Virus record (IMG/VR): IMGVR_UViG_3300022851_000131
Coordinates: 1-21,593 of that record
DNA length: 21,593 bases
Direction: 5' to 3' (one strand)
DNA from: a virus
Part shown: positions 961 to 1,630 of the stretch, piece after piece
Numbering within the stretch: position 1 is the first letter of the stretch
How the letters are laid out: every line of letters starts with the position of its first letter
Position numbers and translations under genes: made by a program
The notes under the pieces: generated by a model
What the model saw: only the letters and a program-made list of their open reading frames with translations
What the model was told of the DNA's origin: nothing
Database searches by the model: none

Positions 961-1596
961 TTATTTAACTTTGCTAATGTCTATTGGCATGATGACAAAT
1001 GTTCCATGCTCTGAATTGCCCCAAACAGGATTGAATTTGCTGGCAGTGTTCGAGTTTAACTCGACCGATTCAGCGCCATTCATTGCAGCGTCTAAAAATG
1101 ATGCTTGTACGTGAATATCACCGACGGGGTAAACACTAATGCGACCATTCACAATGGTAGGTGTCTCACCCATGACAGTATCGCCAAGAGGTGAGGAACC
1201 TTTAAAAGCCGAATCAATAACGCGCTGAACATCAGGGTATTTGTCAGTGCTATCGGATAGAACGCCTGATTTCGGATCATACAGGCCGTCTGTCAGGTCT
1301 GTATTTGCCCAGTGAACACGACTACCATCAGATCCATAAATTGTTCCGTCATTAACGCAAACATAGTTAAGCGCCGGCCGGTAGTCACGCTTGCCGCAAG
1401 CCTTTGCAACCCAATCAAACGCGGTCTTGGCTATTTTTGGCTGTGCTGGTAGCGTCATTTTGAATAGTCTCTCTAACGTGGCGTAATCAACCTCAATACT
1501 GCCGCCGATTCGTTCATCTGCCCGATTCAGAAACCCTAGTAATGCTGCGTGCGCGTCTTTCTTGCTGAATGCTTTTGATTGTGTAAGTTTTAACAT
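961..1596 (-). CDS. Sliding-clamp-like (DnaN-like) mini protein, putative
   Basis: The 211-residue protein has an RBS (AAAGGGGA) 7 bases before its ATG. Several words occur in the same order as in bacterial DNA polymerase III beta clamps. These are VNDGTIYGSDGSRVHW at residues 81-96 (compare the clamp 'atDGhRLa' motif), DKYPDVQRVI at 118-127 (compare 'FPDyrrviP'), a helix ASFLDAAMNGAESVEL at 165-180, and a C-terminal TFVIMPIDI at 199-207 (compare the clamp terminus 'yviMPmrl'). Clamps are about 366 residues in three domains, so this would be a reduced version. A role as a phage processivity factor or a decoy for host clamp partners is inference. Alternatively it only shares a fold fragment. 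Confidence 0.5.
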   Translation of the reverse strand: MLKLTQSKAFSKKDAHAALLGFLNRADERIGGSIEVDYATLERLFKMTLPAQPKIAKTAFDWVAKACGKRDYRPALNYVCVNDGTIYGSDGSRVHWANTDLTDGLYDPKSGVLSDSTDKYPDVQRVIDSAFKGSSPLGDTVMGETPTIVNGRISVYPVGDIHVQASFLDAAMNGAESVELNSNTASKFNPVWGNSEHGTFVIMPIDISKVK

Positions 1597-1630
1597 GGTG
1601 TATCCCCTTTCTTTGATTATGATTCTGATT

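Follow-up and report, generated by a model that had tools for sequence, protein, structure and literature searches.

The two-domain clamps T4 gp45 and PCNA assemble as trimeric rings, and several copies of E. coli β*, an internal dnaN product (not a phage protein) that starts near residue 135 and lacks domain I, also form a ring. Unlike the phage clamp-like protein described here, β* keeps domains II and III complete, making ring closure possible. The full-length β dimer is held by the I-b residues K74, I78, R96, R103, R105 and F106, which face I272, L273 and E298-E304 of III-a, and the pocket that receives its partners, 18 residues in all, is built from II-a (152-177), the 242-247 linker and III-b (320-365) (PMC11139829). 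E. coli cells were not viable on alanine mutants of the loop II residues D150/R152, for which a role in loading was proposed (PMC5042465). Short phage β-like proteins have already been annotated by others, as in the case of gp53 of Bacillus phage Sam46, the annotation of which rests on homology only (PMC8190038). Within the literature searched, to which the 2016 survey of replication proteins in viruses (NAR gkw322) did not belong, reduced or pocket-only phage clamps were not described, and an earlier account is possible.

Results

The gene of interest occupies positions 961-1596 of the window, by which the whole 21.6-kb IMG/VR fragment analysed is meant. The plus strand is full of stops across this interval, and the open reading frame that coincides with it exactly lies on the minus strand (1596..961); on the basis of ORF, homology and fold it is assigned to a reduced β-clamp-like protein of 211 aa (P0001). 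A Shine-Dalgarno-like AAGGGGA (1603-1609, minus strand), a good ribosome-binding site, precedes the ATG by 7-13 nt. The next gene of the operon (729-956, 75 aa) is of unknown function, as are those at 353-634 (93 aa, with a weak phrog_15513 match) and 192-353 (53 aa) and the gene upstream at 1631-1855 (74 aa, with a weak match to phrog_26253), all of them on the minus strand; the genes at 353-634, 729-956 and 1631-1855, which flank the clamp-like gene, are small, conserved-looking and early-type. This operon continues past the left end of the fragment, the left side of which holds small minus-strand genes, divergent from a right side that codes for endolysin, terminase, portal, major head and tail proteins. 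The "early operon" proposed in the sequence-only reading is made plausible by the divergence of these small genes from the lysis, terminase and structural genes, and is kept short of proof by the cut at the left end. No family-A polymerase was found within the window, and a PADLOC search returned nothing.

When searched singly, the window protein matched no Pfam family at E ≤ 10, nothing meaningful in the PDB and no relative in IMG/VR, and in a profile comparison with DnaN it reached only P 3%. As the protein by itself is too diverged to score, the clamp assignment was made through its family. A tblastn search against phages retrieved gp33 of Shewanella phage SppYZU01 (E 9e-12), Psychrobacter prophage Psymv2 and three Vibrio phages. 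The first five-sequence alignment was too diverged for seeding a scan; iterated pattern scans with small alignments added more relatives from IMG/VR and from three bacterial genomes. The two resulting alignments are A6, of 22 rows, and the family profile A7, of 13 diverse rows; in these, the invariant or near-invariant positions are W62, K65-A66, R73, L76, G91, R93, G104-x-Y106, A171 and a C-terminal V-I-M motif. The family profile had no match in nine terminase-related records, most of which are fragments. Two candidate relatives were discarded: L010 is a structural protein, and the match in Pseudomonas phage Lu11 (H4) belongs to the unrelated phrog_8902. Among the additional members, the clamp fragments of Psychrobacter prophages (L021-L030) form a subfamily that lacks the N-terminal helical extension and is located near an integrase, with no polymerase nearby; a Candidatus Sabulitectum MAG contig (L029:7941-8486), from a very different bacterial host lineage, encodes a 181-aa clamp fragment with the end HAAVMPFKM.

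Against all PDB sequences, the A7 profile raised only DnaN above the noise (best 7rzm, E 4e-10; first non-DnaN match, E 0.44), with three collinear blocks at 7rzm residues 150-193, 237-268 and 315-373. Comparison of A7 with 21 DnaNs by hhalign gave P 98.8% and E 9e-17, as opposed to P 1.4% for the best of 40 column-shuffled profiles and 0.2% for one reversed profile. The AlphaFold2 model of the window protein has pLDDT 84.8 and pTM 0.77, that of its relative L018 pLDDT 91.5 and pTM 0.86. By VIA, the window model matched 4n94 with Z 13.8 (2.7 Å, 146 residues), residues 57-207 being superimposed on E. coli β 136-366, and the best DnaN match of the L018 model had Z 12.8. The best 50 matches listed by Foldseek/VIA were all DnaN, and the alignment covers two half-domains rather than two full domains. 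No Pfam clamp domain scored above its gathering threshold, the best family member reaching 17.4 bits against a cut-off of 27. Taken together, the sequence profiles and structural models indicate that the protein is a true but far-diverged homologue of the bacterial β clamp. Its initial description as a reduced sliding-clamp-like protein is backed alike by the profile search and the comparison of profiles, by modelling of the structure and by the fold search, and the predicted structure, which had been named as the place where the idea could fail, contains the clamp fold.

The phrog_3007 profile matched the window protein at E 1.5e-4 and 10 of the 13 family members (best 4.8e-12). This profile, labelled RusA-like, is the best single-sequence PHROG match, and one could accordingly take the protein for a RusA-like resolvase, or for an unrelated fold bearing chance motifs. 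However, cellular DnaN itself matches phrog_3007 at 9e-21, and the label is therefore wrong or at least misleading; no RusA Pfam domain is present in the window protein, and the shuffled and reversed controls and the fold search favour a clamp. We consider a non-clamp identity very improbable; to the extent that sequence and predicted fold can decide, it has been refuted. DnaN also matches phrog_6615 ("DNA polymerase") and phrog_12598 ("RusA-like"), the labels of which look wrong; the labels of all three profiles have spread into GenBank phage records.

Positions were mapped by hhalign in E. coli numbering (the reference DnaN, of 366 aa, has the same landmark positions). Confidently aligned positions number 0 in I-a, 0 in I-b, 37 in II-a, 10 in II-b, 6 in III-a and 34 in III-b, and the blocks 106-109 and 138-154 of the window protein have a low posterior probability. 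In the place of domain I stand residues 1-56 (1429-1596, minus strand), a family-specific N-terminal helical extension with helices at 12-28 and 38-48 and a conserved "PA.PK.AK" linker; since some VIA alignments extend into it, the modelled helices may partly replace domain I. The DNA-contact and central-pore residues R24, R73 and R80 are gone along with that domain. With regard to the dimer interface, the domain I side (K74, I78, R96, R103, R105, F106) is absent, and on the III-a side E298-E304 are unaligned and I272/L273 map only at P ~0.1. As judged by the alignment, the three-domain clamp architecture is lacking, domain I being absent and II-b and III-a largely so. From the residue lists of PMC11139829 and the alignment, we infer that the halves which meet at the pocket were kept and those which face ring neighbours were lost, and the protein probably does not close a DnaN-type ring. 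Two functions suggested earlier gain no support from this pattern. Pairing with host DnaN through the normal interface was rejected, as neither of the two β dimer-interface surfaces is retained and their residues have no confident counterpart; a higher-order ring would have to be built with the half-domains facing ring neighbours mostly lost.

The partner-binding pocket presents the opposite picture. Residues 64-105 (1282-1407, minus strand) correspond to β 143-188, the first half of domain II with pocket subsite I (hhalign, mean P 0.8), and hold D71/R73, the counterparts of the essential D150/R152, as well as L76 and S89-D-G-S-R-V94 (TDGHRL 172-177 in β); D71 and R73 are kept in the family. 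Residues 118-128 (1213-1245, minus strand; DKYPDVQRVID) align by hhalign with β 239-249 (GRFPDYRRVLP), which contributes P242, R246 and V247 to the pocket. Residues 156-207 (976-1131, minus strand) align with β 312-366, the second half of domain III with pocket subsite II; this C-terminal block (mean P 0.91) ends in FVIMPIDI, equivalent to YVVMPMRL of β. The clamp-like words quoted from the sequence beforehand are all present and in clamp order: DGTIYGSDGSRVHW (residues 83-96), YPDVQRVI (120-127) and FVIMPI (200-205).

All pocket positions were aligned by hhalign (18/18). Averaged over the 18 pocket positions, the family match to the DnaN consensus was 0.69. For the remaining 125 aligned positions the value was 0.17 (Mann-Whitney p 5e-10), and for those 22 outside the pocket with at least 80% conservation among DnaNs it was 0.24 (p 3e-5); these figures are to be read with the caveat that profile alignment favours matching columns. 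The window protein itself is identical to the reference DnaN at 11/18 pocket positions versus 14/125 elsewhere; for its consensus matches in the pocket versus elsewhere, Fisher p was 1.3e-4. Its pocket substitutions are T172S, H175S, L177V, N320Q, Y323F, M364I and R365D, among which H175S, N320Q, M364I and R365D could change the specificity of the pocket. These computed data show that the canonical pocket for clamp-binding motifs is retained.

The genomic surroundings of the relatives link the clamp-like gene to a polymerase. The clamp-like gene and the beginning of a family-A polymerase gene overlap in SppYZU01, in L008/L009 (its near-identical kin from IMG/VR) and in L033, and the polymerase bears the N-terminal exonuclease motif DFETYSEAG; in L018/L019 the two genes adjoin, and in L020 the clamp-like gene lies ~1 kb upstream of the polymerase. 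In Vibrio phage CKB-S1 the clamp forms the N-terminus of a single 950-aa polymerase ORF, and the clamp frame of VP16C and VP_EVC_2013 continues into the DFETYSEAG motif and is then frameshifted. In these last two (L005:4989-7834 and L089:3989-6834, respectively) the clamp-exonuclease and polymerase ORFs lie in different frames, the CKB-S1 frame being continuous; the cause may be a sequencing error common to both records, a genuine split or programmed frameshifting. No fused clamp-polymerase relatives were found in IMG/VR. A family-A polymerase match was present in 11 of the 23 records tested, several of which are near-duplicates, and was absent from the records of the Psychrobacter prophages, L035 and L037/L038. 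For the window phage itself, we infer the link from its relatives.

Within the linked polymerases, no canonical clamp-binding motif was found save one weak candidate, QAILGW in CKB-S1. In the fused copies (CKB-S1 and VP16C) the pocket looks degenerate, and both proteins score poorly against DnaN; the degeneracy would fit a fusion that replaces the peptide contact, in a sample of two related phages. The same copies bear on the possibility of a true processivity clamp, in which several molecules form a ring round DNA by new contacts and tether the phage polymerase. The polymerase linkage, the clamp fold and the family-wide retention of the loop II pair D150/R152, with its proposed loading role (PMC5042465), are in line with such a clamp, but little is left of II-b and III-a, the carriers of ring-neighbour contacts, the domain I residues that contact DNA are missing too, and pocket decay in the fused copies argues against it as well. 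We hold such a ring to be quite unlikely.

Discussion

The reading that best accommodates these results, to which we give about an even chance, is that of a pocket-only clamp, probably not ring-forming, that serves as a polymerase-associated accessory binding clamp-binding peptides; homology and pocket retention are computed, and the oligomeric state, ligand and function follow by conjecture. By computation, the protein corresponds to the II/III junction of β, the first half of domain II and the second half of domain III together forming the pocket for clamp-binding motifs (CBMs), with domain I and the recognisable ring-neighbour halves of II and III dropped and a short helical N-terminus added. 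Such a soluble module would bind short clamp-binding peptides without a DnaN-type ring. Because the relatives make the clamp beside, or fused to, a family-A polymerase, its most likely job would lie in phage replication, where as an accessory subunit of that machinery it would link the polymerase to CBM-bearing partners of phage or host origin; a hold on these partners could also keep them from the host clamp. The polymerase link adds a replication role to the three functions guessed from the sequence. The best fit among those three is a role as competitor or adaptor towards clamp partners, since the peptide pocket is the part that was kept; binding itself is a prediction. Several observations weigh against this reading, namely the near absence of canonical CBMs from the linked polymerases, the lack of a family-A polymerase match in the window fragment and in some relatives, the substitutions that could alter the specificity of the window pocket, and the low alignment confidence of two mapped blocks.

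An alternative explanation of the retained pocket and lost ring surfaces is that of a host-takeover decoy, a free pocket module made early that occupies host CBMs (those of clamp loader δ, Pol III α, Hda and MutL are proposed as targets) and blocks host replication or repair without involving a phage polymerase. The location of the window gene among small unknown early-type genes agrees with this, as do the Psychrobacter prophage records without a family-A polymerase and the related short clamps of Dhillonvirus/Guernseyvirinae coliphages, which lie alone and antisense within structural genes, one of them annotated as a "possible moron". A pure host decoy, however, would have no need to be encoded directly upstream of the polymerase, as it is in several lineages, or fused to it, as in one, and we regard it as rather unlikely.

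Returning to the polymerase-associated pocket module, the findings point, tentatively and with somewhat less than an even chance in our estimate, to a phage class in which the clamp has been cut down to its docking pocket: non-ring "pocket modules", some of them fused to a family-A polymerase, that recruit or sequester replication proteins via the docking code of the host clamp. Sliding clamps are viewed as rings first and as docking hubs second, and a phage family with the hub and no ring would split the two functions. Antibiotic developers target the clamp pocket, which such a family would allow to be probed with a natural protein, and a function would be assigned to genes called hypothetical or mislabelled as RusA. 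The clamp-polymerase fusion also lends itself to testing how processivity is gained by family-A phage polymerases.

Compared to bacterial DnaN (PF00712/PF02767/PF02768), the phage protein is homologous, shares the fold over β 136-366 and carries the pocket motifs DxRxxL, TDGHRL, FPDYxRV, N..Y and VMPMR in the same order. It differs in its length (211 versus 366 aa), in the absence of domain I, of most of II-b and III-a and of both dimer surfaces, in its extra helical N-terminus and in the family-A polymerase link of its relatives. Sam46 gp53 ("PolIII beta-like processivity factor", 217 aa) is of similar length and is a weak fold match (Foldseek E 1.6e-6).

Also related are short coliphage proteins annotated as "DNA polymerase III beta subunit" (Dhillonvirus/Guernseyvirinae; bas14_0007, fEgEco19_23c; phrog_3007-type). 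They consist of domain II and III-b, domain I and III-a being absent as in the window family, and the pocket is likewise kept, with up to 15/18 pocket positions identical to DnaN (15/18 in two of them); their profile matches that of the window family with P 98.6% and E 9e-16. Unlike the window protein, these coliphage proteins are 171-173 aa long, retain the second half of domain II and have no N-terminal helical extension, and their genes stand alone within structural genes and not in a replication module. In TheodorHerzl/Bas14, fEg-Eco19 and W5_chr3 (L090:3453-3971, L091:3447-3968 and L093:2953-3468), these antisense, pocket-retaining clamp fragments occupy a moron-like position and are tractable in E. 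coli K-12. The best annotated relative, and a member of the same family, is SppYZU01 gp33 (ARB06270, BFVD A0A1V0DYJ8; 33% over 81%, E 9e-12; Foldseek E 2.7e-15), which is annotated as hypothetical only and is encoded immediately upstream of the polymerase gene.
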